Shown one piece after another: positions 1,687 through 33,157 of a stretch of 40,714 nt of DNA. Origin of the DNA: an uncultured Ruminococcus sp. (GTDB lineage: Bacteria; Bacillota; Clostridia; Oscillospirales; Acutalibacteraceae). Made by a program: the position numbers and the translations under genes. Every line of letters starts with the position of its first letter. Positions within the stretch are counted from its first letter, which is position 1. The stretch covers positions 1 to 40,714 of the forward strand of contig CADASG010000014.1 in NCBI GenBank assembly GCA_902790475.1. Reading direction: 5' to 3'. The notes beneath the pieces were generated by a model. It saw nothing but the letters and a program-made list of their open reading frames with translations, searched no databases and was not told where the DNA came from.

Positions 1687-1960
1687 TACCGCCGTCAAGG
1701 TGATTGCGAGCGCCGCAAAGTGTCCTGACTTCGCCCCTGACGCAATACGTCAGCTTATGCGAAAGCTCGATATGAACGAGAAAGGGCTTGCAATCCTGAT
1801 GAACGTCACGCCCGAAACCGTGCGGTTGTGGGTAGCGGGCGCGGTAAAGCCGTGCGGCACCGCCAAACGGTTAATGCAGATTTACAGCACAAGCCCTGAA
1901 ATTATCAGCAGAATAGCCGCGGAAAGCGAGGTTGACAATGCCAAGTCAGCCGTTACATGA
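1673..1960 (+). CDS. Helix-turn-helix DNA-binding protein
   Basis: This 95-residue protein has a helix-turn-helix core near residues 24-65 (IRQLMRKLDMNEKGLAILMNVTPETVRLW), in the style of XRE/antitoxin-type regulators. The recognition helix would be the VTPETVRLWVAG part. It lies between the small membrane protein (14-base overlap) and the LPD1 gene (about 23-base overlap) and is therefore co-expressed with them. The likely role is control of element genes, but the operator is not identifiable here. Confidence 0.7.
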   Translation: MKKDNTAVKVIASAAKCPDFAPDAIRQLMRKLDMNEKGLAILMNVTPETVRLWVAGAVKPCGTAKRLMQIYSTSPEIISRIAAESEVDNAKSAVT

Positions 1961-3947
1961 GGACTTCGGAGAAAAGATAGGCGGCGCGAAAAAAGATTTG
2001 TGGAGCGCTCGCGGACTGTACTCCGCTGATCTCGACGACATGAATGAGCGTGAGGCGGACAAATACGTCAGGAAAGATAATGTCTGGAAAAAGCCCGACT
2101 ATCAGGCTATGCTCGACGACGGCATACCGATTGGCGTTGTCTATTACATTAAAAAGGTGCGCGACGCTGTTCCTGCTTCTCCACGGTATTACCGCGCCTA
2201 CAATTATGAGGAAAAATCATATCAGCAAAAACGGTACATTGATACCGTCCGTCAGCTTCAAAAGGTTATGGAAAAGGTTCGCACCGTTGAGGACGCTAAA
2301 AATGCCTTTGTTGATTTCTATATCAGAAACGCGTATTTGCGGTCTGTTCGGGAATGGGACGGGCGGACTGCCTATGAGCGGACAAGCGATTATTCTCACA
2401 ATCCGGCTTTGACAGATAACTTGCGCAACGTCATAAAAATCTCCTCAGACGTACAGTTTGAATATGATTTTGTCCGCAAGGCAAAGTCTGAGCAATTTCT
2501 TGTTCCAAAGGAGCAAAAGGTGCCGCGTGGCTACGATATTCATCTTTATGACGGCAAGGGCTACTCACGCAGCGGAGATTGGAAGAAAGATACCTACTAC
2601 GTCACAAAAGGTCATCACATTTTACAGACAAATTTTGAGACGCGGGATCAAGCGCTCCGCTGGGTGCAGGAATACGCCAAAAGCCGTACTAAAAGCGGCA
2701 AACAGCGTTTTGTACCTCCGCAGTTGGAGCATATCACCCGAACGGGACCGGATTTCAGAAACGGTCAGGAAATTACCGGACAGCATTATCTTGACGCCTT
2801 CGGCTTTCGCGGCGGCGAGTTTGGCAACTGGCTAAATCAGAACGACCGACAGGCCTCGCTCAATATGGGCTTTGAAGCCTTAAAGGATTTGGCCGCGGCA
2901 CTGCATATCTCCGACAAAGATATTGCTTTTGACGGCACACTTGCGATTGCCTTCGGCGCTCGCGGCAGCGGTAACGCGGCGGCGCACTATGAACCGCTGC
3001 GCAAGGTTATCAATCTCACCAAAATGCACGGCGCGGGATCTCTCGCCCATGAGTGGTGGCACGCGCTGGATGATTATCTCGGCGGAATAAAGGGCGCCAA
3101 CGGTATGCTATCTGAGCGCGCAAGACGGTATGAGCCTATGCGCAAGCTGATTGAAGCTATTACGACCAAGCCAGAAACCTATGAGCAGGCAAAAGCGCGT
3201 ACCGAAAGAAACAATGAAATTCAGATTAAAAACGCGACATCGTGGGTTGATTCGCTTATGAAGCGCTCTGTAGAACGCGCAAACGATCCGGCCATATCGG
3301 AGCAATACGCGGCAGCAAAAGCAGCTTTTTTAGTCGGAGCCGAGGGCAGCGTTGACAGATTAAGTAATTTGAAGAAACAAATTACCGGACACGTTATTCC
3401 AAAGGATGACCGGCAAAATCTTCAATATTACGAAAACCGTATGCGGGATATTCAGAATCAGTCGGAGCCTGTTATCGGACGCGTTCAGACTGATTACTAT
3501 AAAAACTCAAAGAGAATGGGTAAAACGACCGAGAAAGACGGCGGATATTGGGACAGCGAAGTCGAAATGACGGCGCGGGCTTTTGCCTGTTACGTCAAAG
3601 ACAAGCTGTCCTATCAGTCTGATTATCTTGTCGGTCACGCTGAGAGCTGCCTCGGACTTGATACGGATAAAGACGGCAAAATGCAGATAATCAAGGCTTA
3701 TCCAGAGGGCGAAGAACGCAAGTCAATCAACGCCGCTTTTGATAATCTGATTGCCGAGCTGAAAAAGGAGCTTGTTTTCACTCATACCGAGAAAACGCCG
3801 TCACTGCCTCTTGCCAAAACGCAGACAGCGCAACAGCTTTCTATGTTCGGTGAGGATAAGCCGTCTGTACTCGGTCAGCTCGCGGCGGCGAAAGCCGCGC
3901 CTAAGCCACATTCCTCTCCTGCCAAAAAGCAGGAGCAGTCTTTATAA
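1938..3947 (+). CDS. LPD1 domain-containing zincin-like polyvalent protein
   Basis: This is a 669-residue soluble protein. Residues of about 273-385 match the LPD1 (large polyvalent protein-associated) domain: FGFRGGEFGNW, then AIAFGARGSGNAAAHYEP, VINLTKMHGAGSLAHEWWHALDDY. The HEWWH near residue 371 fits an HExxH zinc-peptidase motif. A later EMTARAFACY segment (near 545) supplies a plausible third ligand glutamate. LPD domains are known from large polyvalent proteins of mobile elements that are proposed to act in the recipient; proteolysis or anti-defence activity is inference. The C-terminus carries the tail shared by many proteins of this element (KPSVLGQLAAAK ... KKQEQSL). ATG 1938 is chosen over the TTG two codons upstream. 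Confidence 0.75.
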   Translation: MPSQPLHEDFGEKIGGAKKDLWSARGLYSADLDDMNEREADKYVRKDNVWKKPDYQAMLDDGIPIGVVYYIKKVRDAVPASPRYYRAYNYEEKSYQQKRYIDTVRQLQKVMEKVRTVEDAKNAFVDFYIRNAYLRSVREWDGRTAYERTSDYSHNPALTDNLRNVIKISSDVQFEYDFVRKAKSEQFLVPKEQKVPRGYDIHLYDGKGYSRSGDWKKDTYYVTKGHHILQTNFETRDQALRWVQEYAKSRTKSGKQRFVPPQLEHITRTGPDFRNGQEITGQHYLDAFGFRGGEFGNWLNQNDRQASLNMGFEALKDLAAALHISDKDIAFDGTLAIAFGARGSGNAAAHYEPLRKVINLTKMHGAGSLAHEWWHALDDYLGGIKGANGMLSERARRYEPMRKLIEAITTKPETYEQAKARTERNNEIQIKNATSWVDSLMKRSVERANDPAISEQYAAAKAAFLVGAEGSVDRLSNLKKQITGHVIPKDDRQNLQYYENRMRDIQNQSEPVIGRVQTDYYKNSKRMGKTTEKDGGYWDSEVEMTARAFACYVKDKLSYQSDYLVGHAESCLGLDTDKDGKMQIIKAYPEGEERKSINAAFDNLIAELKKELVFTHTEKTPSLPLAKTQTAQQLSMFGEDKPSVLGQLAAAKAAPKPHSSPAKKQEQSL

Positions 3948-3960
3948 AAGGGGTGATTAT

Positions 3961-4242
3961 TTGTCTGATGAAAAAGACTATACACTGCTCGAGGATGATT
4001 TGTTTTCGCCCGGCAGCCGCATAAAGCTGGATCATGTCCTGTATTTGAACGAGTATGATATTTCTGAGTTGTTGGATAAAAGTGTTGAAGAAGTGCGCGA
4101 GCTATATAACGAGAGCTTCAAAAAAGAAGAAAGTATGTACGAGGTTCTTCAAGCAGGTTTGAAAGCATGGGAACACGACGCGGCGCAAACGCGAAAACTG
4201 CAATTAGCGCTAAACTACCTTGAAATCGCACCAATGGACTGA
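3961..4242 (+). CDS. N-terminal half of a frameshifted paralogue of the 4710-5546 gene
   Basis: The start is TTG 3961 behind AAGGGGTG, giving 93 residues. LSDEKDYTLLEDD and PGSRIKLDHV align with LRDEKYYGVFDYDD and PGSELKIGHT of the intact gene at 4710. The region AWEHDAAQTRKLQLALNYL aligns with EWERQAAITKTYDRALEYL. The homology then jumps to another frame at about 4215-4225, where this ORF ends after six unrelated residues (EIAPMD). The two halves overlap by 23 bases, so this is most simply a gene broken by a small indel. Expression as two polypeptides by coupled re-initiation is possible. The family is not recognised by name. Confidence 0.6.
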   Translation: MSDEKDYTLLEDDLFSPGSRIKLDHVLYLNEYDISELLDKSVEEVRELYNESFKKEESMYEVLQAGLKAWEHDAAQTRKLQLALNYLEIAPMD

Positions 4243-4696
4243 GGATAAAAACGGCGTGCGAACTATCAGTAATTCCGTTTATAAGATGACATGTAAGCTA
4301 TCTGAAAATCCAAAATGGAATTTATGGAGTGCCAAGCCGCTAAATGACCGTTGGTTGGTAGAATGGGAAGTCACTATCAATTCACCAAAGCTCGGTCATT
4401 GGGCATATGTAGCAGGTCAAAAGCGCAAATTTGAGGATCGTGTTACCGCAGAAAACTATTTAAATGGAAGAATACACGCATATGCAAAGTATTTTTCCGA
4501 CCTCTCGCCGTCTATTCCTGAAAAATATAAAATGTTTTTTATGGAAAGCGGCCGCGTTTTACCCGGTTACAGGATAGAAGGTCAAGAGCAGCAACTAAAA
4601 AAGCCCTCGGTGCTTAATCAGCTCAGCGAGGCAAAATCTCAGCAAAAGGCGGCGCCGGCTACGCCTTCTAAAAACAAAAAAGAGCCGGAGCTTTAA
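4220..4696 (+). CDS. C-terminal half of the frameshifted paralogue, with shared tail
   Basis: This frame (TTG 4220 is the first usable codon, without a clear ribosome binding site) gives 158 residues. SNSVYKM, VEWEVTINSPKLGHWAYVAGQKRKF, SPSIPEKYKMFF and LPGYRIEGQE align in order with SNMVYEM, VTWDLDIRSPKHGHCVEIAGQRRKR, SPPIPQEYAEYF and LPGYTVEGQE of the next gene. It ends with the element-wide tail KKPSVLNQLSEAK ... KKEPEL. Conservation of both halves suggests that the frameshift is recent, is tolerated, or is a sequencing error. The function is unknown. Confidence 0.6.
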   Translation: MKSHQWTEDKNGVRTISNSVYKMTCKLSENPKWNLWSAKPLNDRWLVEWEVTINSPKLGHWAYVAGQKRKFEDRVTAENYLNGRIHAYAKYFSDLSPSIPEKYKMFFMESGRVLPGYRIEGQEQQLKKPSVLNQLSEAKSQQKAAPATPSKNKKEPEL

Positions 4697-4709
4697 TATG
4701 GAGGAATTT

Positions 4710-5546
4710 TTGAGAGACGAAAAATACTATGGTGTTTTTGATTATGATGACGAACTGACGCCCGGCAGCGAATTAAAAATCGGCCATACCGTTGTACAGG
4801 ACTATTACGATAATCAAATAGATTTGGCTCCCTTTATCGGCTTGGGTGCGGAAAGTCTTTCCAAAGCAAGAGAGCAGAGCGTTGAAGCAGAGAAGATGAT
4901 TTTTTCCAAAATCAGGGATTCAATCCGTGAATGGGAGCGTCAGGCGGCAATTACAAAAACGTATGACCGCGCTTTGGAATATTTAACTACTCACGCTGTT
5001 ACGCATACGTCGAATCAGTGGGTTCACGAGGACTACTATGACCGTGATTCGATCAGCAATATGGTTTACGAGATGTCCGTATCTGTGTGGGAAGAAACCA
5101 AATACGACAGAACAAAACAAGAGTCTGTGCCTGTTGCATGGTATGTTACATGGGATTTGGATATACGCTCGCCGAAGCACGGCCATTGTGTCGAAATCGC
5201 AGGTCAAAGGCGAAAGCGTTACACCGATAAAGCGGCTGCGGAAAAATATATCGAGGGTCGCAAGAAAGCCTTTGCGCATTATTTCAAGGAAATCTCACCG
5301 CCGATACCGCAGGAATACGCTGAGTATTTCAAGGTGAACGGCGTTTTGTTGCCCGGCTATACGGTTGAGGGGCAAGAATCTGAAATATCTACAAAAACAG
5401 CCGCCGAGATTATCAACGAAATCAAAGGCGGCGATTCTATATCTAACACAAAAAAGCCCTCTGTGCTCAAAAAGCTGGCGGAGGGAAAAACCGATAAACC
5501 GGCTCCCTCAAAAGGAGCCAACAAGAAGGAGGAACAAAGTCTATGA
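4710..5546 (+). CDS. Unnamed ICE accessory protein, intact tandem paralogue
   Basis: This soluble protein of about 278 residues has no family name that I recognise. TTG 4710 is preferred to ATG 4698 for two reasons. GGAGGA sits at 4700-4705 with suitable spacing, and the N-terminus then lines up with the TTG-started paralogue upstream (LRDEKYY versus LSDEKDY). It has an acidic N-terminus, a helical middle (EWERQAAITKTYDRALEYL) and a beta-rich part with WYVTWDLDIRSPKHGH and IAGQRRKR. It ends with the shared tail KKPSVLKKLAEGK ... KKEEQSL. Its stop overlaps the DUF3846 start by 4 bases. Confidence 0.65.
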   Translation: MRDEKYYGVFDYDDELTPGSELKIGHTVVQDYYDNQIDLAPFIGLGAESLSKAREQSVEAEKMIFSKIRDSIREWERQAAITKTYDRALEYLTTHAVTHTSNQWVHEDYYDRDSISNMVYEMSVSVWEETKYDRTKQESVPVAWYVTWDLDIRSPKHGHCVEIAGQRRKRYTDKAAAEKYIEGRKKAFAHYFKEISPPIPQEYAEYFKVNGVLLPGYTVEGQESEISTKTAAEIINEIKGGDSISNTKKPSVLKKLAEGKTDKPAPSKGANKKEEQSL

Positions 5547-5953
5547 AAGTTTTAATGGTAGAACCCGGCAAGGTTCCCTACGAAAAAGAAATCGGCGACG
5601 GCCTGAAAGCGCTGCAAGACGCTGTCGGTGGATATATTCAGGCAGTTTACCCCTATGAAGATCCTGTCGCGCTGGTATGCAATGAGGAAGGTAAAATTGA
5701 AGGTTTGCCGCTTAACCGCGCGCTCAGAACCGAGGACGGTGAAATTTATGATATTATTGCCGGAAACTTCTTTATCTGCGGGCTTGGAGAAGAAAGTTTT
5801 TGCAGCATTTCACCTGAGCTTTCCGAAAAATTCAAGAAAGAATTTAAGCACCCGGAAACGTTCACAAAGTTATTCGGAAAGATTTTAGCTGTAAAGGAGC
5901 CTGTACCCGGCGAAGGCTCATCCGAAAAATCTCACAAAGGACCGGAACTGTAA
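5543..5953 (+). CDS. DUF3846 domain-containing protein
   Basis: This 136-residue protein matches DUF3846 nearly end to end: an opening MKVLMVEPGKVPYEKEIGDG, then LQDAVGGYIQAVYP, VALVCNEEGK, GLPLNRALR and IYDIIAGNFFICG. DUF3846 proteins are common in Firmicute ICEs, plasmids and phages and have no assigned reaction. The ATG follows AAGGAGG (about 5526-5532) and overlaps the preceding stop by 4 bases. The last residues (KSHKGPEL) resemble the final part of the element-wide tail but lack its SVxxxL helix. A cytoplasmic accessory role is inferred. Confidence 0.85.
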   Translation: MKVLMVEPGKVPYEKEIGDGLKALQDAVGGYIQAVYPYEDPVALVCNEEGKIEGLPLNRALRTEDGEIYDIIAGNFFICGLGEESFCSISPELSEKFKKEFKHPETFTKLFGKILAVKEPVPGEGSSEKSHKGPEL

Positions 5954-6750
5954 TGTTACTTTCAATTCGGGAGCCATATTTGCTCACCGTTCAGAAAGAC
6001 GACTTCTTCCCAAATCCGCGGCGCGAGGACGAAAATTTCGGTACCATGATTTGTTTTCATCGACGTTATCAGCTCGGAGACGAGCACAAATATTTTTGTT
6101 CAGACGATTTGTTGGAGGAAATGTTTATCAATGCTGCCGACGGCGGTGAAAAAGGCAAGCAAATGTATGAGGCTTTTGTGAATAGTTTTGACCTTCACCC
6201 CGGAACCTCGGCACAGCTCCGCGCTTACAGTCGTGCTTTGATGGCAGAAATAGAAAAGGCGTATGTTGTGTTACCTGTGTATCTTCTCGACCACAGCGGT
6301 TTATCGGTCAGCACCACCGATTTTCGTGATCCGTGGGACAGCGGACAAACAGGTATTATTTTTGCTTCATTTGATAAAATCCGCGAGGAATTTGAGGTTG
6401 AAAAAATCACGCCTGAAATCCGGCGGAAAGCGGAAAATATGTTAAACGCCGAGGTTGAGCTGTACGACGCGTATCTTAACGGACAGTGCTACGGGTATGA
6501 GTTATATAAAAACGGCGAGCTGCAAGATAGCTGTTGGGGCTTCATTGGCAGCGTTGACAAGGCGTGCCGGGATATTGCGGAGTATCTGCCCGACGAGTGC
6601 AAGGGTATGACAGCTAAACTGTCAGAAGTCAACGATCCGGCTTCTATGGTGAAAACGCTGTTAAAACACGCGCGAATTCAGGTGGCTCAGGTTGCTAAGG
6701 ATCACGAACACCAACCGCGCGAGAAATCACTTGACGCGGTTTTAATTTAA
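5953..6750 (+). CDS. Conserved hypothetical protein of phage/ICE type
   Basis: This 265-residue protein belongs to a family seen in phages and conjugative elements of Firmicutes but without a known function. Recognisable blocks are PNPRREDENFGTMICFHRRYQLGDEH near residues 21-46, PVYLLDHSGLSVSTTDFRDPWDSGQTG near 104-130, and YDAYLNGQCYGYELY followed by DSCWGF near 170-198. The start codon directly abuts the previous stop (taATG), which suggests coupled translation. Its C-terminus (HQPREKSLDAVLI) does not show the full shared tail. Confidence 0.65.
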   Translation: MLLSIREPYLLTVQKDDFFPNPRREDENFGTMICFHRRYQLGDEHKYFCSDDLLEEMFINAADGGEKGKQMYEAFVNSFDLHPGTSAQLRAYSRALMAEIEKAYVVLPVYLLDHSGLSVSTTDFRDPWDSGQTGIIFASFDKIREEFEVEKITPEIRRKAENMLNAEVELYDAYLNGQCYGYELYKNGELQDSCWGFIGSVDKACRDIAEYLPDECKGMTAKLSEVNDPASMVKTLLKHARIQVAQVAKDHEHQPREKSLDAVLI

Positions 6751-6766
6751 AGGAAGGAGGAATTAT

Positions 6767-7237
6767 TTGCAGGAAGAAATCGACCAAAGAACCGTATCTA
6801 TCACCGTTCAGGCGGCAAAGCTGTCAGGACGGGTTTTGAAAGCGGCTATGACGGCTGCTCTCCACAAAATGCAGCAACAGCGTCATTCGGTTAAACCCGG
6901 CCGCAACAGTCTCAAACGGCTGGCACAGGGCGACGGCGGCTTGAATACGATTGAAGTTTCGGGACGTTTGCGCTCCTTTGAACGGTACGCACGGAAATAT
7001 CAAGTTCGTTATCACATTGAAAAAGAGGTAGGCAGTAAACCGCCGCGCTGGACGGTATATTTCAAGGCGAATCAGGCCGACGCTCTGACCGAGGCGTTTA
7101 AGGCATATACCAATAAAGATCTCACCCGCGGCAAAAGGCCGTCGCTTGTGGCTCAGCTCCGTAAATTCAAGGAGCTTGTCAAGACGCTCGGCAAGGATCG
7201 TGTCCGCAACAAGGAGCATGGAGGGCCTGAACGCTGA
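6767..7237 (+). CDS. pcfB: PcfB family protein (DUF3801)
   Basis: This 156-residue protein matches the PcfB/DUF3801 family: an opening QEEIDQRTVSITVQAAKLSG, then SFERYARKYQVRYHIEK and VYFKANQADALTEAF. The conserved end is KRPSLVAQLRKFKELVK. PcfB-type proteins are encoded next to the coupling protein in Gram-positive conjugation systems, and the VirD4 gene follows here with a 4-base overlap. The start is TTG 6767 behind AAGGAGG. The KRPSLVAQLRKFK segment resembles the tail found on many other proteins of this element, which may point to a shared docking function (inference). Confidence 0.85.
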   Translation: MQEEIDQRTVSITVQAAKLSGRVLKAAMTAALHKMQQQRHSVKPGRNSLKRLAQGDGGLNTIEVSGRLRSFERYARKYQVRYHIEKEVGSKPPRWTVYFKANQADALTEAFKAYTNKDLTRGKRPSLVAQLRKFKELVKTLGKDRVRNKEHGGPER

Positions 7238-9072
7238 GTAAAAACGATTTTATCAAAAAGTATGTTATTCCAAATCTTCCGTATTTGCTGTTTGTGCTAC
7301 TGTTCGCAAAGCTCGGAGAGGTTATCCGGCTCGCGCCCGGCGTGGACGCGTCACAAAAAATGTTGGGACTGAATCAAGGCTTTTCTGCGGCGTTCAGTCA
7401 CTTCTTTCCGACCGCATGGATAGATTTGTTAATTGGCATTTGCGGCGCGGGTATTATGCGCGTCGTCGTTTATGTCAAAAGCAAGAACGCGAAAAAATAC
7501 AGAAAGAATATTGAGTACGGCAGCGCGCGCTGGGGCACTAAAAAGGATATTGCTCCTTTTATGGATCCTATTGCGTGGAATAACATTATTCTCACTATGA
7601 CCGAGGGACTTATGCTGTCAGGCAGACCGAAAAAACCTGCCTTTGCCCGAAACAAGAATGTGCTGGTCGTCGGCGGCTCAGGCTCAGGTAAAACGCGGTT
7701 TTTTATCAAGCCGAACCTTATGCAGCTTCATTCTTCTTATGTCATTACCGATCCGAAAGGTACGGTGCTGATTGAGTGCGGAAAACTGTTACAGCGAGGC
7801 GCGCCGAAAATCGGCAAGGACGGCAAGCCGGTGAGAGACCAAAACGGAAGGATAGTGTATGAGCCTTATAAAATCAGGGTTTTCAACACTATTAACTTTT
7901 CAAAGTCAATGCACTTTAACCCGTTTGCATATATCCACTCCGAAAAAGATATTTTGAAAATTGTCACTACCCTTATTGCCAATACCAAAGGCGAAGGCAA
8001 ATCAGGTGATGATTTTTGGGTAAAGGCGGAAACGCTGCTTTACACAGCTCTTATCGGCTATATCTATTATGAGGCGCCGACTAATGAACAGAATTTTGCG
8101 ACATTGGTTGAAATGATAAACGCAATGGAAGTACGCGAGGACGACGAGAATTTCAAGAACGCGGTTGACCTTCTTTTTGACGCATTGGAGCAAAAGAATC
8201 CCGATCACTTTGCGCTGAGGCAGTATAAAAAATACAAGCTGGCGGCGGGAAAAACAGCAAAATCCATTTTGATTTCCTGCGCGTCGCGTCTTGCTCCCTT
8301 TGATATTAAAGAGGTCAGAGAGATTACCATGTACGACGAGCTGAATTTAGATATGCTCGGAGACGAACGGACAGCGCTTTTCCTGATTATGTCCGACACC
8401 GACGGCACCTTCGCATTTTTAATCAGTCTGATTTACTCTATCCTGTTCAACAGACTTTGCGAACGCGCCGACGACGTTTACGGCGGACGGCTGCCTGTTC
8501 ATGTGCGCTGCCTGATTGACGAGGCAGCGAATATCGGTCAGATTCCAAATTTGGAAAGGCTGATGGCGACAATCCGTTCAAGAGAAATATCCGCTTGCCT
8601 TGTATTGCAGGCACAGAGTCAGCTTAAAGCCTTGTATAAGGATAATATGGACACAATTATCGGCAACTGTGACGCGAGTTTGTTTCTCGGCGGTAAAGAG
8701 GAAACTACGCTGAAAAGCTGGAACTCCCTGCTTGGAAAGGAAACGATAGACCTCTATAACGAGAGCGTCACCAAAGGCACGCAGGAAAGCCACGGGCAAA
8801 ATTTTCAAAAGCTCGGCAAGGATTTAATGTCAATGGACGAAATCGCCGTTATGGACGGCGGTAAATGTCTGCTGCAGATCCGAGGGGTGCGGCCTTTTCT
8901 GTCAAAAAAATATGATATTACCAAACACCCCAACTACAAGTATTTGTCGGACTACAATCCGAAGAACGCTTTTAGCATAGAAGAATTCTTATCTACCCGT
9001 CTGAAACCGAAAAAGGACGAGCAGTTTATCAACTACGAAATCAGCGCCGAGGAATTGGCGCGCTATTCTTAA
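7234..9072 (+). CDS. virD4: VirD4-like type IV coupling protein (TraG/TraD ATPase)
   Basis: This is the coupling ATPase that brings the relaxosome to the mating channel at the membrane. Two hydrophobic N-terminal segments are followed by the family block EYGSARWGTKKDI. Walker A is GGSGSGKT near residues 147-154, and VITDPKGT follows. Walker B is VRCLIDEAANIG with its aspartate near residue 429. The length is about 612 residues, normal for Tn1549-type proteins. Family proteins begin with a sequence like MSKNDFIKKYVIPNLPYLLF, which here starts at CTG 7234. That codon overlaps the PcfB stop as CTGA and lies downstream of GGAGGG. The TTG at 7285 would remove this conserved start. Confidence 0.92.
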   Translation: MSKNDFIKKYVIPNLPYLLFVLLFAKLGEVIRLAPGVDASQKMLGLNQGFSAAFSHFFPTAWIDLLIGICGAGIMRVVVYVKSKNAKKYRKNIEYGSARWGTKKDIAPFMDPIAWNNIILTMTEGLMLSGRPKKPAFARNKNVLVVGGSGSGKTRFFIKPNLMQLHSSYVITDPKGTVLIECGKLLQRGAPKIGKDGKPVRDQNGRIVYEPYKIRVFNTINFSKSMHFNPFAYIHSEKDILKIVTTLIANTKGEGKSGDDFWVKAETLLYTALIGYIYYEAPTNEQNFATLVEMINAMEVREDDENFKNAVDLLFDALEQKNPDHFALRQYKKYKLAAGKTAKSILISCASRLAPFDIKEVREITMYDELNLDMLGDERTALFLIMSDTDGTFAFLISLIYSILFNRLCERADDVYGGRLPVHVRCLIDEAANIGQIPNLERLMATIRSREISACLVLQAQSQLKALYKDNMDTIIGNCDASLFLGGKEETTLKSWNSLLGKETIDLYNESVTKGTQESHGQNFQKLGKDLMSMDEIAVMDGGKCLLQIRGVRPFLSKKYDITKHPNYKYLSDYNPKNAFSIEEFLSTRLKPKKDEQFINYEISAEELARYS

Positions 9073-9087
9073 TAAGGAGGCTATTGT

Positions 9088-9117: not shown

Positions 9118-9133
9118 AATCATTACTTTTTTC

Positions 9134-9179: not shown

Positions 9180-9267
9180 GTTTGTATCAAACACACAATT
9201 TCACTTTTTACTCAATTTACAAACAAATTGCAATCATTGACAAATCAAACTTGATAGGAGGAATTTA

Positions 9268-9483: not shown

Positions 9484-9489
9484 TTTCGT

Positions 9490-10350: not shown

Positions 10351-10365
10351 CAAAGGAGGAATTGA

Positions 10366-10803
10366 ATGAGCAAAACCACCGAACAGCCGCGCCCTGACGC
10401 CGCGGCAAACAACGACCTGAAAATCGAGGTCAGCGTGCGACCAATCGCTCCCCGAAATAATCTGCTGGGCTTTGCGACCGTTACGATTAACGACAGCTTT
10501 GTTGTTGAGAATTTCCGCGTATGTTCCGGCGAAAAGGGGTTATATGTCAATATGCCCTCTATGCAGGACAGTCAAGGCAACTGGCATGACACTTTTAAGC
10601 CCATTACTGCCGACGCGCGAAATCTGATTGTTTCCGCAATTATTAACGGCTACGGCGCGGCGATTGATAAAATGCGCGAAACCCTTGACGCTTCACGCGA
10701 GGCGACGGAAAAGCCGTCTTTGAAAGGCGCGTTAAAGGATCAGGCTGATAAGGTCAGAAAGCAGCCTGTCAAATCTGCCGGAAAGAGTGAACAGAGCCTC
10801 TGA
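10366..10803 (+). CDS. SpoVG family protein with element-type C-terminal tail
   Basis: This 145-residue protein has a SpoVG-like core at about 19-110: IEVSVRPIAPRNNLLGFATVTI, DSFVVENFRVC, LYVNMPS, and a later NGYGAAIDKMRE. SpoVG proteins bind nucleic acids and act in sporulation, division and gene control in Firmicutes; ICE-borne copies are common and their task is unknown. It begins with AGGAGG-ATG. The C-terminal extension is not part of SpoVG: EKPSLKGALKDQADK ... GKSEQSL is the tail shared with LPD1, DUF3849 and other proteins here. The stop overlaps the methyltransferase start. Confidence 0.85.
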   Translation: MSKTTEQPRPDAAANNDLKIEVSVRPIAPRNNLLGFATVTINDSFVVENFRVCSGEKGLYVNMPSMQDSQGNWHDTFKPITADARNLIVSAIINGYGAAIDKMRETLDASREATEKPSLKGALKDQADKVRKQPVKSAGKSEQSL

Positions 10804-11361: not shown

Positions 11362-12090
11362 ATGGAATATCGCGAAGCCCTAGGAATTCTCAGGAACCGT
11401 CTTGACGACAGTCTCACACAGCACGCTGCGGAAACAGACAAAAGCGACATCGGCGAAATTTACAAATTACAGGAATATTCCGAAACCCATTACTATATGA
11501 AAGCTGTTCACGACTACACAGCGGCCGAGGTTGAAGCGCTTCTGTCTTTTGTTGACCCTTTAGAGGTTGCCTTCTGGTGCCGGGAAGAAAATACGCACGA
11601 GGTCGGTTTACCTATCTGCGATATTCTCAAAGAGATTAACGCGGATTCGCGTTTTCCAAAGATGACACCGGAGCTTTCTCCTGAGGACAAGGTTCACACC
11701 CTTGTTATTCGTCTTGGTAAAAACCTGTATGAATATCAGGAAAAGCTGCAAACGTGGAGCAATCAACAGTTAATCGACCACTCCGAGGAAATTGCGGCGA
11801 CAATGGCGGCTTATAAATATATGACAGAAGAATTTGCCAATAACCCGCCGGAGCATATTGCCGATTATTTATTACAGTTTGAAAACCCGCTTGCCGTTCT
11901 TTGCGAGCACTGGCCCGAGTGTACTTTGTTTGGCGTGGACGTTATAGCGGATATCAAAGATGAAATAAAGGATTTACAGGTAAAGCGCGAACAGCCGAAA
12001 TCGGTACACGAGCAGCTGAAAGAGGCTTCCCGTTCTGTTCAGGAACAGACAAAATCAGAAAAAAAGCAGCGCGGCGACGGGGCTCGCTGA
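11362..12090 (+). CDS. Accessory protein, weakly DUF3848-like, with shared C-terminal tail
   Basis: This is a 242-residue acidic helical protein. It has two similar helical units: YMKAVHDYTAAEVEALLSF-VDPLEVAFW near residues 46-75, and YMTEEFANNPPEHIADYLLQ followed by FENPLAVLCEHWPE near 152-185. The second unit recalls DUF3848, but I am not sure of the assignment. ATG 11362 follows AAAGGAG and lies just after the methyltransferase stop. The end has the tail PKSVHEQLKEASR and a basic segment, KKQRGDGAR. No enzymatic motif is visible. Confidence 0.55.
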   Translation: MEYREALGILRNRLDDSLTQHAAETDKSDIGEIYKLQEYSETHYYMKAVHDYTAAEVEALLSFVDPLEVAFWCREENTHEVGLPICDILKEINADSRFPKMTPELSPEDKVHTLVIRLGKNLYEYQEKLQTWSNQQLIDHSEEIAATMAAYKYMTEEFANNPPEHIADYLLQFENPLAVLCEHWPECTLFGVDVIADIKDEIKDLQVKREQPKSVHEQLKEASRSVQEQTKSEKKQRGDGAR

Positions 12091-17489: not shown

Positions 17490-17511
17490 ATCAAACGAAC
17501 GGAGGTTAATA

Positions 17512-24702: not shown

Positions 24703-24703
24703 A

Positions 24704-25865: not shown

Positions 25866-25879
25866 GCGGAGGCGGGATA

Positions 25880-26296
25880 ATGGCAGTTGACGCAAGAAAT
25901 GAAATCTTCGACCACATTGAGTTGTTTGACGCTCCGGCTATGTTCACCAACGCGAGAGTTGACCGCTCCTCCATACCGGAAGGGTTATTTTGCTATGACG
26001 TGCGCGGCGCGGATGACGATCCAGGCGGGCTTACCGTGATAGAACCCTTTGTTACGGTAAACCATGCGGGAACGATAATTGGCATTGAGGACTATATGCT
26101 TGAACAAGGGCAGGCAAAATATATTGCCACCCACATTAACTTTCTCGGTGACGAAATCACGCTGGCTGAGTTTTGTGCTGAAAACGTTGAAATCAGCGAA
26201 CCGAAAAAGGGCGTGTTAGACAGTCTTAAAGAGAATAAGGCTAAGGTTGCCAAAACGCAGCCGTCATCGAAACACAGTAAAGAAGAAACGCGATAA
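25880..26296 (+). CDS. LPD28 domain-containing protein with shared tail
   Basis: This protein of about 138 residues matches LPD28 (large polyvalent protein-associated domain 28): LFDAPAMFTNARVDRSSIPEGLFCYDVRGADDD, then EPFVTVNHAGTIIG. ATG 25880 has GGAGGCGGG just upstream; the ATG at 25862 overlaps the dUTPase stop and lacks a site. The C-terminus has the element-wide tail KKGVLDSLKENKAK ... KHSKEETR. LPD domains occur in mobile-element proteins thought to act in or on recipient cells; the activity is unknown. It ends the dUTPase block, followed by 273 untranslated bases. Confidence 0.75.
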   Translation: MAVDARNEIFDHIELFDAPAMFTNARVDRSSIPEGLFCYDVRGADDDPGGLTVIEPFVTVNHAGTIIGIEDYMLEQGQAKYIATHINFLGDEITLAEFCAENVEISEPKKGVLDSLKENKAKVAKTQPSSKHSKEETR

Positions 26297-28815: not shown

Positions 28816-29618
28816 GTGCGTCAACTTGTTTTGAATACGGATGCTATCATTTCTTTCCTTTGAGACGGTTTGAAAAAGGAGAGGGCGATTTTTTTGCCCT
28901 CTCCAAACGGCTTGAAAGCGATCCGCCCGTCGGATTGTCAGAGTACAAGGAACGTCAGAAGTTTCCCTATTCATACGACGAATTTTACAAGGCGGCAACC
29001 AATCCCAACTATGATATTTTCTGCTGTGTGGAAAACGGTAAAAGCTATGTTCCGGCAACGCGAGAGCTATTTGTCTATCACAATCCGTCCGGCTATTCAA
29101 AACGTGAGGCGAGAATCATTCAAAACCGTATGCTGATTGATACCAAAAATCAACGGTTCGATATGCAGCAAATTGATAACCGCCGCTTTATGTTCAATCC
29201 GCAAACCGGCATACTGCTTCTTGGTATGCAGTATAAGCCGTCCGGAAAGATATACGGCAGTCACGCGGAGGATCTGTCAAACGCACGGATTCACAGCGGC
29301 TATGACGACTATGTGCGCGGCTGGGTAGGCACGGGAAAGGAATATCCTCACGGTGTTATCCACTTTGCGCCGAACGTTGACGACCGGAACACAGCGTTAT
29401 TTGACCGCGCTTTCAAGGCACTGGATATGTTTTCACAGAACGGCGCCGAGGCACAGACAGTTGTACGGGCACTTGGCAAACGCTGGGAACAGCCCTTGTT
29501 TTCCATGCTTACCAGTTTGGAGACAAAGCCGTCAATCTACGAACAGCTAAAACAAAAGCCGGAGCAGCAAAGCATCCGGCACAACCAACCTACAAAGAAA
29601 AAGGAGACTGAAATTTGA
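28812..29618 (+). CDS. Conserved ICE accessory protein with shared tail
   Basis: This 268-residue soluble protein has recognisable but unnamed family blocks: RRFMFNPQTGILLLGMQYKPSG near residues 148-170, then GSHAEDLSNA, YDDYVRGWVGTGKEYPHGVIHFAP and a helical region with AEAQTVVRALGKRWE. No catalytic motif is certain. It starts inside the topB stop (ATGA) and ends four bases into the next gene. The C-terminus is TKPSIYEQLKQK ... KKKETEI, the element-wide tail. Confidence 0.6.
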   Translation: MSASTCFEYGCYHFFPLRRFEKGEGDFFALSKRLESDPPVGLSEYKERQKFPYSYDEFYKAATNPNYDIFCCVENGKSYVPATRELFVYHNPSGYSKREARIIQNRMLIDTKNQRFDMQQIDNRRFMFNPQTGILLLGMQYKPSGKIYGSHAEDLSNARIHSGYDDYVRGWVGTGKEYPHGVIHFAPNVDDRNTALFDRAFKALDMFSQNGAEAQTVVRALGKRWEQPLFSMLTSLETKPSIYEQLKQKPEQQSIRHNQPTKKKETEI

Positions 29619-30259
29619 GTATAAAAAACATTGAAGCGGAAGAATTACGCGAAATGGCCGGCAAGGAAGGTCTGATTTTACAGGACTGCGGCGGTCCGCT
29701 GCAGGACTGGCTCGAGGGCATTAACAATATGCTGACCGAGGCGGGAATCTTGCAGAACGGGAGCCGTTTTACCGACATTTATGTTTTTGAGCATGAGGGG
29801 CTGACGAATCTGCTGTTTCCGTTTGAAAACGCAAAGCTCGACGTCGGCAAGCTGGCAATGTGGCGCTTACAGACCTTCGGCAATTTCAGCGGTAAATGGC
29901 TGACCGATTATGTTGATAACCGCTTAGGCGGCTTTATTGACGAATCGCGGTTTGCCACCGACAAGCCGGATTGTCCTTTAATCGGCGCTGACGGGAACGT
30001 GTTCAATCTGATTGGGATTGCCTCGCGCACTCTCAAAAAACACGGCTTAGGCGATCAGGCAAAGGAAATGACCTCCCGAGTTTTCGCGTGCGGCAGCTAC
30101 AGCGAGGCATTGAATATTATCGGCGAATATGTCAATATTACCGACGCCGAACACGTCCGAGAGTTTCGCCCTTCCGTTGTGAAGAAAATCAAAGAAACAA
30201 AGGTTGAGGAGCCGACCGATAAACCAAAGCAGCATAAGCCGCAGGAGAAAGGCAGGTGA
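29615..30259 (+). CDS. Accessory protein with polyvalent-protein-like domain
   Basis: This 214-residue protein starts at TTG behind AAGGAGA. The middle carries FPFENAKLDVGKLAMWRLQTFG near 69-90 and WLTDYVDNRLGGF, then CPLIGADGNVFNLIGIASRTL and SYSEALNIIGEYV. I recall this pattern from LPD-type domains of mobile elements (possibly LPD11 or a relative), but the exact assignment is uncertain. The tail is a looser variant (RPSVVKKIKETK ... PQEKGR). It is co-translated with both neighbours. Confidence 0.6.
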   Translation: MSIKNIEAEELREMAGKEGLILQDCGGPLQDWLEGINNMLTEAGILQNGSRFTDIYVFEHEGLTNLLFPFENAKLDVGKLAMWRLQTFGNFSGKWLTDYVDNRLGGFIDESRFATDKPDCPLIGADGNVFNLIGIASRTLKKHGLGDQAKEMTSRVFACGSYSEALNIIGEYVNITDAEHVREFRPSVVKKIKETKVEEPTDKPKQHKPQEKGR

Positions 30260-30264
30260 AAAAT

Positions 30265-30738
30265 ATGGATAACAATGTTTACGGCGTATGGGCTATCCGT
30301 AGCGGCGGTTCTATTTTCGGTCATGCCGAGGCGTGGTGCAAGCATTACGGAGCGCCGATTGAGTTTGATTCCAAGGATGAAGCGCAGAAATATGCCGCTG
30401 AACTCAACAAAGACGCAACGGCAAATTGCCGTTACAGCGTCCGCAAAAAGCAGCACGAGCCCGGCGCGGTCAAGTTTCCATTGGAGCGTACCCCTGACGA
30501 TAAGGTACCGGCTCCCGGTCGTCCGGTACATCTTCCTGAAAACTATCTACTCAATGCTGAGCTGAAAGAAGAAGCGCAGACCGGCAACTACAATATGCTG
30601 GATGGCAGAATGGATAACCTCGCGCCGGAGAGCTCTGAGAAAAAATCCTCCGTTATGGATAAGCTAAAATCCGATAAACCGCGTCAGGAGCCCAAATTGC
30701 CGTCTCACAGCAGCAAAAGTCAGGAGCGCGAGATATGA
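30265..30738 (+). CDS. Hypothetical accessory protein with shared tail
   Basis: This protein of about 157 residues begins NVYGVWAIRSGGSIFGHAEAWCKH, followed by FDSKDEAQKYAAELNKDA. This small alpha/beta region is found in other ICE proteins of unknown role. ATG 30265 is chosen; a GTG at 30256 overlaps the previous stop. The last 40 residues are the shared tail (KKSSVMDKLKSDK ... KSQEREI). It overlaps the next gene by 4 bases. Confidence 0.55.
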   Translation: MDNNVYGVWAIRSGGSIFGHAEAWCKHYGAPIEFDSKDEAQKYAAELNKDATANCRYSVRKKQHEPGAVKFPLERTPDDKVPAPGRPVHLPENYLLNAELKEEAQTGNYNMLDGRMDNLAPESSEKKSSVMDKLKSDKPRQEPKLPSHSSKSQEREI

Positions 30739-31436
30739 TACCGCAGGTTTACCGCGACGTGGATATTTTGGAGTCGTTAGGGCGGATTGTGAATCTGCAT
30801 ACAAAGGAATTCAAAGAGGACTTTGAGCTTGATAAAAAAATCATTCTCAAACTGGCACAGTCAACCGATGAAACCGACCGACGCCTGATTTGGATGTGCC
30901 GTCCTCTCGGAACTCACTGCTTAAGAGAGGGTGACGTGTTTTTGGAGGACACTTACGAAAACAGAGTCCTCTATGCTTATCACAGCGAAAAGCCAAATAA
31001 AAATCTGTTATACGCCCTTCATTTAAAAAGTATGGACGGCTCGACGGTAAAGGGAGACATTTACACGCTGGACTATGCAAAGGAAGTTGATAGGCTGTCG
31101 CTGCTGTCTTGCCCTGTCACAGAGGTCACATTGTACTTTGCCAACGGCAAGGAGGTTACTGTCCCTTATGAATCCTTCAACGACGCGATTCACGAATTAA
31201 CCCCAAAGCACGGCGAGCTCGATTCATTTCGCTACCGCCCGGAGAGCGAAGCGGAGCTGGGAATGATTTTGCGGCGTTTGAATATCAAGCGTGACCGTCA
31301 AGCTAATCTCGGTGATTTTGAACAGCACATTGAGAGCCTGCAAAAAAGCTCTGTCAGGGATAAGTTGCAAAAGGCAAGGTCTGAGGTCAAGCCCTCGGAA
31401 CCGAAACCGTCTAAAAAGAAAGAGCAATCGCTATGA
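30735..31436 (+). CDS. Conserved ICE accessory protein of unknown function, with shared tail
   Basis: This 233-residue protein has DVDILESLGRIVNLHTKEFKEDF near the start and later LIWMCRPLGTHCLREGDVFLEDTYENR, then VKGDIYTLDYAKEVDRL. I recognise it as a recurrent protein of Clostridia elements, without a domain name. The tail (QKSSVRDKLQKARSE ... KKKEQSL) is among the clearest in the window. The start overlaps the previous stop, and the stop overlaps the mobC start as ATGA. Confidence 0.6.
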   Translation: MIPQVYRDVDILESLGRIVNLHTKEFKEDFELDKKIILKLAQSTDETDRRLIWMCRPLGTHCLREGDVFLEDTYENRVLYAYHSEKPNKNLLYALHLKSMDGSTVKGDIYTLDYAKEVDRLSLLSCPVTEVTLYFANGKEVTVPYESFNDAIHELTPKHGELDSFRYRPESEAELGMILRRLNIKRDRQANLGDFEQHIESLQKSSVRDKLQKARSEVKPSEPKPSKKKEQSL

Positions 31437-31774
31437 GCAGAGAGCGCCGTAATGTACGTGTTCACATGCTGCTATCCGAACAGGAGGCAAACATTATCCG
31501 GGAACGTATGGCAGAGCTCGGTATTGTCAATCAGTCGGCGTATTTTCGTAAGATGGCGATTGACGGATATATTGTTTTCTTGGATATGGACGAAATTCGG
31601 GAGCTGACGCGATTGATAAATATTTGCTCCAACAATCTCAATCAGTATGTGAAACGCGCTAATGAAACAGGCAGTATCTATGAAACCGATATAGAGGATT
31701 TACGCGAGCGTATGGACAGTATCAGGGATCAGGTCAGAAAAATCTTACTGGAATTTTCAAATTTTTCTCAGTGA
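31433..31774 (+). CDS. mobC: MobC-like relaxosome accessory protein
   Basis: This 113-residue protein shows the MobC pattern: RRNVRVHMLLSEQEANIIRERMAELGIVNQSAYFRKMAIDGY, a ribbon-helix-helix-like DNA-binding part, then LTRLINICSNNLNQYVKRANETG and a C-terminal helix. MobC binds near oriT and helps the relaxase open the nick site. The relaxase gene is 1.4 kb downstream, separated by the CD1845-like, XRE and DUF3849 genes. It starts in the ATGA overlap with the preceding gene. Confidence 0.88.
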   Translation: MSRERRNVRVHMLLSEQEANIIRERMAELGIVNQSAYFRKMAIDGYIVFLDMDEIRELTRLINICSNNLNQYVKRANETGSIYETDIEDLRERMDSIRDQVRKILLEFSNFSQ

Positions 31775-31789
31775 AACCGCTGACTTTTT
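31768..31789 (+). terminator. Weak hairpin with T run overlapping the mobC stop
   Basis: TCAGTG and CGCTGA form a six-base-pair stem with one G-U and an AAAC loop, followed by CTTTTT. The stop codon of mobC lies inside it. The stem is short, so it may only reduce read-through. Confidence 0.3.
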
Positions 31790-31851
31790 CGATTAAACGC
31801 GTTAGTATGAACATAGGAATATATTTCCAAATTCAGAAAGGGGGCGCCGTT

Positions 31852-32142
31852 ATGCGTCTGGTTCTCAAATTTTTATCGTTACCGTTTATCATCATCACTT
31901 GGCTATTATACGGGATTTGCAGATTGCTTGTCCTGGCTTCGGGTGTAATTCTCGGTATTCTGTCCGGGATAACTCTTATTGCCGCTGTCATACTGTTCTT
32001 AAAGGCAGGAGCATTGCCCGGCGTTGCCTTTTTAATGATTGCTTTCCTTATCAGCCCATACGGTATTCCAAAGTTGGCTGCGTGGCTCACGGGAAAGCTC
32101 GGCGGTCTCAACTATGCTCTGCGCGAGTTTGTCATGAGCTAA
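31852..32142 (+). CDS. CD1845 family membrane protein
   Basis: This 96-residue protein opens MRLVLKFLSLPFIIITWLLYG and has three hydrophobic stretches, with FLISPYGIPKLAAWLTGKLG near the end, as in CD1845-type proteins of Clostridia ICEs. ATG 31852 has a purine-rich GAAAGGGGG upstream. Its function is unknown; membrane location beside the mobilisation genes is typical. A terminator follows. Confidence 0.8.
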   Translation: MRLVLKFLSLPFIIITWLLYGICRLLVLASGVILGILSGITLIAAVILFLKAGALPGVAFLMIAFLISPYGIPKLAAWLTGKLGGLNYALREFVMS

Positions 32143-32158
32143 AAAATATTATAATTCT

Positions 32159-32192
32159 GAGCGAGGTGCTGCGGCGTCTCGCTCATTTTTTT
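32159..32192 (+). terminator. Intrinsic terminator after the CD1845-like gene
   Basis: GAGCGAG (32159-32165) pairs with CTCGCTC (32178-32184) around a 12-base loop, followed by ATTTTTTT. It separates the topB-mobC operon from the XRE-relaxase operon. Confidence 0.75.
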
Positions 32193-32213
32193 ACATCAAA
32201 GGAGTTTTTACAA

Positions 32214-32663
32214 ATGAACATTGGAGATAGAATTCGTTGGTTTCGTAACCGCATAGGCCTGACGCAAAAACAGTTGGGTATGCGTGTAGGATTTCCTGAC
32301 AGCAATGCTGATATTCGCATTGCTCAATACGAAGTCGGGACGCGTAAGCCAAAGGCAGATTTGACCGCAGCCTTTGCAAAAGCGTCAGGCGTTTCGCCGC
32401 TTGCTTTAAGTATTCCTGATATAAACAATCCTCTTGCACTCATACACATGCTCTTTGCGTTAGAGGATTGTTACGGTATGTGGATTGAGCAAGGAAACAG
32501 CACTTTTCAAATTTGTGCCGATCCCTATAACAATCAGCAGGCAGCGCAGCTTTATGAAATGCTCGGTGAATGGTGTAATCAGTATGAAAAACATTTGAGC
32601 GGAGCTATTACAAAACAAGAATACGATAGTTGGCGTTACAACTATACCGGAGGTGAAAAATGA
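32214..32663 (+). CDS. XRE family transcriptional regulator
   Basis: This 149-residue protein has an N-terminal helix-turn-helix (IGDRIRWFRNRIGLTQKQLG, then IAQYEVGTRKPKADL) at residues 2-60 and a C-terminal half of unknown role (YGMWIEQGNSTFQICADPYN, then WCNQYEKHLSGAITKQEYDSW). ATG 32214 follows AAAGGAG just after the terminator. It is therefore probably the first gene of the relaxase operon and may control it. The stop overlaps the DUF3849 start as ATGA. Confidence 0.85.
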   Translation: MNIGDRIRWFRNRIGLTQKQLGMRVGFPDSNADIRIAQYEVGTRKPKADLTAAFAKASGVSPLALSIPDINNPLALIHMLFALEDCYGMWIEQGNSTFQICADPYNNQQAAQLYEMLGEWCNQYEKHLSGAITKQEYDSWRYNYTGGEK

Positions 32664-33157
32664 AATATCATTTACCTGTTTATCTGCACTCTGCTAATTA
32701 TGCCGAGGAGTTTCAGGAAACAAATGATTACCGCGCTTCCTTTCGGTTAAATATGCAATGTCGTGACGCAATCTGCGAAGCGATTGACGCTCACTATAAA
32801 AACAACCGTCTTAACGAAGCGGCAGCACACGAGGTAATCGAGCAGTTTGGATATGAGCGGACGATGGTTATTCTTGCGAATACGGTACATAAAAAGGATT
32901 GGGACGGTAGATTTTCTCCCGATAACCGAAAGTGGGCTGATACTATTCCTTGTCCGTGTGATATGCTCGGCGAAAGAGGAAAGCGTTTTATGGTCGATAA
33001 GGTTCACCCCGGTCTTGTCGATTTGTTTATCACGCAGGTGCGCCGTGAATACAACCGGACCGTCGGACGTCAGTCCGTTAAAGCCGCTTTGAAAGATAAT
33101 TGTGCTCAAACAGCGTCAAAACCAAAGTCACACAAAAAGAAAGAGCAATCTTTATAA
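32660..33157 (+). CDS. DUF3849 domain-containing protein with shared tail
   Basis: This 165-residue protein matches DUF3849: LPVYLHSANYAEEFQETNDYRASFRLN, then CRDAICEAID, FGYERTMVILANTV and DWDGRFSPDNRKWA. DUF3849 occurs alone or within large polyvalent proteins of ICEs and has no assigned reaction. GGAGGTG precedes the ATG. The end (GRQSVKAALKDN ... HKKKEQSL) is the element-wide tail, with the last seven residues identical to those of the 30735 gene. It is directly upstream of the relaxase. Confidence 0.85.
   Translation: MKYHLPVYLHSANYAEEFQETNDYRASFRLNMQCRDAICEAIDAHYKNNRLNEAAAHEVIEQFGYERTMVILANTVHKKDWDGRFSPDNRKWADTIPCPCDMLGERGKRFMVDKVHPGLVDLFITQVRREYNRTVGRQSVKAALKDNCAQTASKPKSHKKKEQSL

Follow-up and report, generated by a model that had tools for sequence, protein, structure and literature searches.

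A short C-terminal tail, with a core of approximately [KR]-x-S-[VIL]-xxx-L, is carried by the products of 12 of the 45 genes in a 40.7-kb stretch of DNA from an uncultured Ruminococcus sp. (contig CADASG010000014.1; the whole 40,714 nucleotides are referred to here as the window). The tail is probably a system-specific C-terminal signal for a type IV secretion system (T4SS), which would dock the relaxase and anti-restriction cargo at the VirD4 coupling protein for export. Judged from its gene content, the window is an integrative and conjugative element (ICE) of the Tn1549/CD1115 family: VirD4 of the CD1115 family, PcfB (DUF3801), VirB4, a C40-type peptidase, TopB, MobC and the relaxase stand together in one module, and visual comparison shows the genes in the order annotated for the Tn1549-type module of the Enterococcus plasmid pMG2200. 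PcfB, MobC and the relaxase were identified by Pfam, whereas the names VirB4, PrgI, C40-type peptidase, DUF4366 protein and TopB were taken from the gene list of an earlier model-made annotation of the letters alone (the sequence-only reading), from the sequences themselves, and from BLAST comparison to relatives. When the window was compared to a library of defence proteins, a methyltransferase was the only match.

The sequence-only reading had proposed a common C-terminal tail on about a dozen unrelated proteins, and scoring bears this out. A 12-column matrix was built from the 12 window tails, and the last 70 residues of each gene product were scored with its own tail left out. The 12 tails reached 7.6 to 23.0 bits and the remaining 33 genes at most 5.7 bits (TopB being the highest of them), with shuffle p values of ≤0.036 for all 12 tails and ≤0.010 for 11. 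The weakest tail was that of gene 28812 (genes without another name are cited by start position), at 7.6 bits and p = 0.036; the product of gene 29615, ranked previously as a looser case, is in fact a clear one at 17.2 bits. From the start of the core to the C-terminus the tails measure, in gene order, 29, 31, 30, 33, 30, 31, 30, 30, 30, 31, 30, and 29 residues, PcfB being the fourth, and this near-fixed distance is the strongest result in favor of the tail being real. Two observations count against it: an internal stretch of the 1629-residue SpaA pilin/sortase protein scores 14.1 bits, so that the matrix is imperfectly specific, and MobC has a shuffle p of 0.008 yet only 4.1 bits. Three cores depart from the pattern, with Gly for Ser in the LPD28 protein, Pro for Lys in the 11362 product, and Ile for Leu in the 29615 product. 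The DUF3846 protein, the other case called looser before, shares the end KGPEL but lacks the core in the window, while longer DUF3846 relatives in loci L007 and L016 have a related core. As claimed earlier, the channel proteins, MobC, TopB, ThyX, and dUTPase lack the tail: no core was found in VirD4, VirB4, TrbL, MobC, TopB, ThyX, or dUTPase in the leave-one-out scan, nor at the end of PrgI, which lies outside the scored list and was judged on its sequence.

PcfB had been credited with a related internal block; the block is present, and it is terminal, beginning 33 residues from the end. By a stricter pattern the core occurs in 45 of 63 PcfB relatives, and residues S126 and L131 are at least 90% conserved in 57 sequences. 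A structural model built from these 57 sequences has a mean predicted local distance difference test (pLDDT) score of 74 (43 for a model without an alignment), and its helix 127-150 spans the tail core; comparison of the model to PDB gave no match at E ≤0.001, and a PDB sequence search with PcfB gave a single match, at E 0.24. Most of the 71 distinct genes listed directly upstream of VirD4 encode PcfB relatives. PcfB may be either a co-exported escort or a gatekeeper that fills the same binding site as the cargo.

The spread of the tail was screened in 10 VirD4 loci from viral contigs and 80 from genomes (retained out of 581 matches), in 40 further stretches, and in pMG2200. In the VirD4 loci, 89 of 1655 proteins scored at least 12 bits, whereas shuffled sequences gave 2 such scores and the 946 interior segments likewise 2; 100 of the 104 matches at ≥10 bits lay 29 to 37 residues from the end, although the last 70 residues were searched. 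The added stretches yielded 46 tails among 696 proteins (1 when shuffled). With a matrix from 44 tails, applied 25 to 40 residues from the end, 163 of 2238 proteins passed, versus 7 shuffled ones. Single linkage placed these 163 in 17 body groups, of which one (L165) is seemingly spurious and the largest lumps multidomain proteins that have single domains in common. Pfam domains on the carriers include ArdC, ArdA, SNF2/MutS-like, YodL, LPD16, LPD25, DUF3846, DUF6674, DUF5688, and MobA_MobL. Relatives of the ArdA-ArdC-YodL and MutS-SNF2 types combine at least two unrelated activity domains in a single chain, as expected of polyvalent proteins, whereas the carriers in the window have one Pfam domain each or none.

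Counted by family in the VirD4 loci, with a loose pattern and identical copies retained, the tail is frequent in relatives of PcfB (65/70), LPD1 (10/11), LPD34 (9/10), and SpoVG (2/3), and rare or absent in those of VirD4 (0/90), VirB4 (0/48), PrgI (0/38), the DUF4366 protein (0/31), NlpC (1/41), TrbL (1/45), TopB (1/7), and MT-A70 (0/9). A wider pattern that allows Asn gave one isolated match among 80 VirD4 proteins. The most constant positions of the tail are the Ser, V/I, and Leu of the core, the Ser being partly imposed by the selection of the 44 tails. Mean net charge is +5.8 in 59 PcfB tails, +3.7 in 104 other tails, and +0.2 (range −3 to 5) in 28 relaxase versions described below. Positive charge of the Agrobacterium kind is therefore not the key feature that the sequence-only reading had emphasized.

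SpoVG offers a comparison of one domain with and without the tail. A search of 59 genomes of the order gave 36 SpoVG matches, for which 30 loci were returned and 29 could be read (L284 being excluded). The tail is absent from 28 of these 29 copies; in L295 a loose pattern match lies inside the domain, and the exception, L310, has PcfB 23 kb away on the same contig. The ICE-borne SpoVG proteins of the window, L012, L019, and L154 all have it. A second VirD4 relative (35% identity) is encoded in the window's own genome at G000:C21:9576-11976 (L002), adjoined by a 324-residue frame with two SpoVG-like matches; this double-SpoVG protein has no tail.

Co-occurrence with the conjugation system was assessed in 147 genomes of the order, drawn irrespective of VirD4, using a hidden Markov model from 44 tails that included no PcfB, with PcfB searched in the same set (matches in 29 of 147). 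With the window's own genome excluded, and one genome whose only tail match was PcfB scored as tail-free, PcfB was present in 13 of the 14 genomes with a tail and in 15 of the 132 remaining ones (Fisher 3.7e-10). An earlier co-location count (39 of 47 near PcfB) was partly circular, since the profile held tails from those same genomes, and was replaced by this 146-genome set. Of the 29 tail places other than PcfB, 17 have PcfB no more than 65 kb away; the number rises to 22 when a listed relaxase at that distance is also accepted, the PF03432 relaxases having been searched for this count up to genome G097. Each of the 12 places without PcfB (ten regions) is surrounded by genes for relaxase, MobC, or TopB, or by further genes of the Tn1549 type, all from the same ICE family. 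In the window's own genome, all profile places (7 at E 0.02 and 8 at E 10) are inside the window. The profile is insensitive: it finds 8 of the 12 window tails at E 10 and 7 at E 0.02, missing four. Genome co-occurrence mainly reflects that the tail and PcfB belong to the same elements, and in the genomes searched the tail is confined to one conjugation-system family.

The relaxase had been listed among the proteins without a tail, which turned out otherwise and strengthens the signal interpretation, since the relaxase is the one protein whose export conjugation requires. Relaxases related to that of the window or of Tn1549 have [KR]-x-N-[VI]-[DE]-x-[IL]-L near the C-terminus, with Asn replacing Ser in the same register; polar and then charged terminal residues come after it. 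The core in the window is K-S-N-V-E-H-L-L, 24 residues from the C-terminus. A pattern of [KR].[SN][VI]...[LM], 18 to 36 residues from the end, occurs in 28 of 36 ICE relaxases (at 20 to 27 residues), where shuffling expects 0.10 among the 36, and in 5 of 7 distant relatives (24–27% identity), compared to none of 38 other PF03432 relaxases. In the stretches around the 12 PcfB-less places, 9 of 10 relaxases of at least 300 residues have the pattern, some being near-copies of earlier ones. The Ser form occurs on the MobA_MobL relaxases that L016 and L025 encode downstream of VirD4, and a similar end is present in 3 or 4 of 23 other MobA_MobL loci read. The equivalence of the relaxase end to the tail is suggestive rather than proven, because the pattern was widened after the sequences had been viewed and because it closes what looks like a coiled coil.

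Several further observations concern relaxases. The Ser-form MobA_MobL relaxases lie where other loci have TrbL and VirB4 (L016:18016-19755 and L025:18602-20308), and a mobilisable element has probably been inserted downstream of VirD4 in both. Many relaxases of other subfamilies have a K/R-rich stretch plus ER at the end, without the helix core. Long DUF3801 frames adjoin relaxases of another PF03432 subfamily at G013:C1:151522 (277 residues), G019:C29:131390 (311), and G050:C7:47497 (303).

Some related conjugation systems appear to spell the tail differently: pCF10-type, Lactococcus, and L. paracasei plasmids lack the Tn1549-type tail. Plasmid pCF10 has the same VirD4 family, yet the Tn1549-type tail is on none of its 23 genes read; in its place, F[DE]ERL is common to PcfB and the ArdC-like PcfD. 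In five pCF10-type stretches, F[DEK]E[RK][LIVK] occurs near the end of 13 of 371 open reading frames (ORFs), where shuffling expects 0.50, and in 0 of 77 interior segments; twelve of the 13 are PcfB, ArdC, toprim, LPD1, Fic, or hypothetical proteins (among them near-copies on different plasmids), the thirteenth being a YdcP gene. The same pattern is in 0 of 986 ORFs of ten Tn1549-type stretches, which were author-chosen. Conversely, the Tn1549-type core is at chance level in seven plasmid stretches, with 3 of 538 ORFs (2.75 expected), versus 38 of 986 in its own type (4.3 expected). In the Lactococcus plasmid pLLA22B, the protein at the PcfB position has TMQERIANAK and ArdC has TMKERIDKAK, and in L. 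paracasei pVHProbi_F22, PcfB has TLQEKIEKAK, ArdC TLDQKIERAK, and a DUF3991 protein TLDKKIAAAK.

Matched replacement of the tails on PcfB and cargo was evaluated by permutation. With cores aligned by eye, pairings of PcfB to same-element cargo were equaled in 0 of 20000 permutations for ten elements, 1 of 5040 for seven, and 1 of 24 for one element per type; this test omitted L364, L365, L367, L368, L369, L371, L372, and L373. An unguided test, which restored L365, L367, L368, and L369 (and thus included four unclear elements), compared the final 50 residues encoded by the gene upstream of VirD4 with those of the cargo (annotated LPD1, ArdC, ArdA, toprim/DUF3991, and zincin genes) and scored the best 10-mer match without gaps. 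It gave p = 20/20000 (0.001) for 12 elements and 534/20000 (0.027) for one per type (eight); in eight elements the best 10-mer coincided with the tail core. When gene ends were compared blindly in pairs, the tail was not among the four pairs listed for L359, L360, L362, and L363.

Tentatively, and from sequence patterns, Gram-positive CD1115-type systems may use a spelled C-terminal docking code, one core per type, on PcfB and on unrelated anti-restriction, toxin-like (Fic), and polyvalent proteins, with a variant on the relaxase in the Tn1549 type. The cores would be S/N-[VI]-xxx-L, F-E-E-[RK]-[LIV], T-M-x-E-R-I-xx-A-K, and T-L-xx-K-I-xx-A-K. PcfB would set or guard this code, a kit of proteins would be shipped with the DNA, and mobilisable elements would pirate the machine by copying the code.

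Other plasmid loci show further terminal sequences. A Fic/DOC-family protein near PcfB in pBEE99 (L372:10128-10883) has the pCF10-type tail KNKFEERLVEAK, and the MobP2 relaxase of an L. paracasei plasmid (L373:16423-17667) has QPSVANHLNGLQK about 53 residues from the end. In a Lactiplantibacillus plasmid (L369), ArdC (9809-10933) has KSELDQSLKR near its end and a 136-residue protein (6916-7326) has KTELEQKL (score 33, shuffles 28), a pair that is possibly another version of the code. The same is possibly true of L367, where a long PcfB (16640-17755) ends in LTEKLDQLEEKAEAIN and an ArdC piece (31397-32176) has SLADQLDKYEKIANELN near the end, its own PcfB ranking third of 12.

Mechanistically, the core is predicted to form a short helix, [S/N]-[V/I]-x-x-x-L, that has a capping residue and mostly follows a Lys/Arg, as suggested by sequence and by the PcfB model, located about 20 to 37 residues before a free C-terminus that is often E-x-E-[R/L/I]. 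To judge from the distribution of the tail, VirD4 of the CD1115 family, possibly with the PcfB encoded directly upstream, would bind the core and thereby recruit both the relaxase-DNA complex, through its shorter Asn version, and anti-restriction and polyvalent proteins, through the Ser version. Statements on published work refer to the consulted portions of the papers cited by PMC number. Export with or before the DNA is suggested by the nature of the cargo and by the known conjugative export of other proteins, FicT toxins being listed among known conjugative substrates (PMC8406263). The exported proteins would then protect or establish the DNA in the recipient, in keeping with the polyvalent-protein proposal (PMC5512222). 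The proposal of the sequence-only reading is partly borne out: a VirD4-side signal, which may either send proteins into the recipient or only dock them in the donor, is supported by confinement to one system family in the genomes searched, the unrelated bodies, the relaxase variant, and other shared sequences in some related systems, while the emphasis on basic charge did not hold.

Several points weigh against export by such a signal. A tail on PcfB is unexpected for a pure cargo tag, and by the loose pattern the core is in 0 of 2 relatives of the 11362 product and 0 of 12 DUF3846 relatives. Both the Asn-for-Ser relaxase pattern and the patterns of the other systems were framed only after the sequences had been viewed, and the relaxase pattern ends what is read as a coiled coil, in which V/I...L pairs are common. 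In the unguided test, the element's own PcfB ranked first of 12 for only three elements and second for two; that of pCF10 ranked last, its cargo fitting the PcfB of relatives better. Within Tn1549-type loci, the PcfB tail fits same-element cargo no better than other cargo (p = 0.078), and L364, L365, L367, L368, and L369 show no clear case of sequence shared by PcfB and cargo. The blind search placed the tail on top in two of ten stretches (L361, and L366 behind transposase copies). Finally, for plasmid R388, which has a different T4SS, recipients require ardC but donors do not, and the authors of that study regard export of ArdC as not required, though not excluded (PMC7213743). Because matched replacement is uneven, the odds given to the signal were slightly lowered.

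An unlikely alternative is that the tail binds PcfB or VirD4 in order to gather ICE proteins at the channel or relaxosome in the donor, with no export. The tail on PcfB, the predominance of PcfB relatives just upstream of VirD4, the tendency of PcfB and cargo tails to change jointly between system types, and the action of R388 ArdC without supply from the donor (PMC7213743) are all consistent with donor-side docking. However, many carriers (ArdA, ArdC, the SNF2-methylase giants, and LPD1) would be expected to act in the recipient and not at the channel of the donor (PMC5512222). It is improbable that the tail is a basic nucleic-acid-binding segment with which proteins ride on the transferred single strand: the positive mean charges of the PcfB and other tails fit this idea, but the relaxase versions are nearly neutral, constancy is highest at the core, with the reservation on Ser given above, and the other systems have F-E-E-R-L or T-L-x-x-K-I cores and no alternative basic stretch. 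Marginally less credible again is a recognition tag for proteolysis or processing, e.g., by the LPD1 or ArdC metallopeptidase domains of the same element. The fixed distance to the C-terminus, the existence of metallopeptidase-like carriers, and the view of Iyer et al. that processing of multidomain polypeptides is likely (PMC5512222) speak for such a tag, whereas the peptidase-like proteins bear the tail themselves and no cleavage site was seen, none having been looked for.

Ordinary whole-protein homology, in which the tail would be the C-terminus of one domain family, is very improbable. Once the last 36 residues had been removed, BLAST of the carrier bodies found one clear relationship, between the two LPD34 genes, leaving 11 bodies without significant similarity. 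The 11362 product and the DUF3846 protein match weakly (E 3e-4), as do LPD1 and the 29615 product (E 0.012), and Pfam matches to DUF4316, DUF6674, and DUF3801 each already extend into the tail; the other bodies of the 12 carriers have no match at E 1e-3, and SpoVG has the tail on ICE copies while nearly all others read lack it. The sequence-only reading had named homology of this kind as an outcome that would undo its proposal, and the body comparison speaks against it.

An equally remote explanation makes the tail a by-product at the DNA level, either because the KKxEQSL end encodes the Shine-Dalgarno site of the next gene, several tails overlapping or abutting the next start codon (one reads AAGAAGGAGGAACAAAGTCTATGA), or because the tails are recent copies of one segment. 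This account was rejected for the core, which starts about 30 codons before the stop, and on codon data: among 295 pairs of identical residues between tails, 96 (0.33) also share the codon, and 0.33 is expected from the usage in five window genes. Amino acids were therefore kept while synonymous sites were randomized, and the tails are not recent copies. In addition, LPD1 and DUF3849 keep the end even though a separate purine-rich site precedes the following start codon, beyond the stop. In some genes the final codons (AAGGAG in KKE) may double as a ribosome-binding site, which could have a small effect on the last residues.

Tails and associated genes in the window (coordinates are those of the window; lengths run from the start of the core to the C-terminus)
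Feature	Coordinates	Strand	Remarks
LPD1 metallopeptidase-like protein (gene 1932-3947), tail	3858..3944	+	29 aa, KPSVLGQLAAAK...EQSL; LPD1 PF18796, E 7.5e-21
Shorter LPD34 paralogue (gene 4220-4696), tail	4601..4693	+	31 aa
LPD34 protein (gene 4698-5546), tail	5454..5543	+	30 aa
DUF3846 protein	5543..5953	+	core absent; only end SHKGPEL
PcfB (DUF3801) gene	6767..7237	+	tail 7136-7234, 33 aa, RPSLVAQLRKFK...GPER
VirD4 coupling protein	7285..9072	+	NCBIfam conju_CD1115; tail-free itself; proposed tail reader
SpoVG-like protein (gene 10366-10803), tail	10711..10800	+	30 aa
11362 gene product, tail	11995..12087	+	31 aa, PKSVHEQLKEAS; DUF3848 match below cut-off
LPD28 protein (gene 25862-26296), tail	26204..26293	+	30 aa
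Gene 28812-29618 product, tail	29526..29615	+	30 aa, KPSIYEQLKQKP...KETEI
Gene 29615-30259 product, tail	30167..30256	+	30 aa, RPSVVKKIKETK
DUF4316 protein (gene 30256-30738), tail	30643..30735	+	31 aa; Pfam match overlaps core
Gene 30735-31436 product, tail	31344..31433	+	30 aa
DUF3849 protein (gene 32660-33157), tail	33068..33154	+	29 aa
Relaxase MobA (gene 33194-34579), variant tail	34505..34576	+	24 aa, KSNVEHLL...KTRR; PF03432

Two other genes of the window were noted. Between DUF3846 and PcfB, positions 5953-6750 encode a 265-residue protein with no Pfam match and with ten relatives in VirD4 loci. An Amidase_6 protein past the relaxase (36940-38139) is apparently not part of the transfer module.

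Protein export by the conjugation machines of Gram-positive bacteria is an open question, on which these results bear. With a portable tail some 30 residues long, and matched versions in other system types, the proteins that a widespread ICE family is likely to export could be listed from their sequences alone. The tail would also supply short peptides for binding tests with VirD4 and PcfB, hint at the way in which mobilisable elements exploit a host ICE, and assign a first role to several LPD and DUF proteins. No description of the tail was found in searches of an open-access library, subscription papers lying outside the search, nor in the consulted portion of a survey devoted to the conjugative transposons of C. 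difficile (PMC3158075).

Among known systems, the polyvalent proteins of Iyer et al. (2017) share the same LPD, ArdC, SNF2, and MPTase domains and are predicted to enter the host with the element DNA, and the consulted part of that account describes neither a common C-terminal tail nor system-specific versions (PMC5512222). The F plasmid pED208 likewise represents a conjugation machine that exports maintenance proteins, including ParA, ParB, SSB, PsiB, and others; it is Gram-negative, and its description, as far as consulted, names no common tail (PMC8406263). C-terminal T4SS signals are known from Gram-negative systems (PMC10025392). In Xanthomonas, the XVIPCD is also one C-terminal module on different bacterial-killing T4SS effectors and interacts with VirD4, but it comprises about 120 residues with other motifs, compared to about 30 in the window tail (PMC10025392). 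Legionella Dot/Icm signals (E-block) are similarly small and C-terminal, with polar and charged residues (PMC10025392); in contrast to these, the window tail has a conserved core and a Lys/Pro/Ser-rich linker, and belongs to a conjugative element rather than to a host-directed system. The translocation signals of Agrobacterium VirB/D4 substrates (VirF and VirE2, with a basic Arg motif) and the C-terminal 48 residues of MobA are also short, C-terminal, and portable and serve T4SS recruitment (PMC10025392). Unlike these, the window tail has the S/N-[VI]-xxx-L core as its constant part and a variable charge, and it is found on PcfB, on anti-restriction proteins and, in a variant form, on the relaxase of Gram-positive elements.

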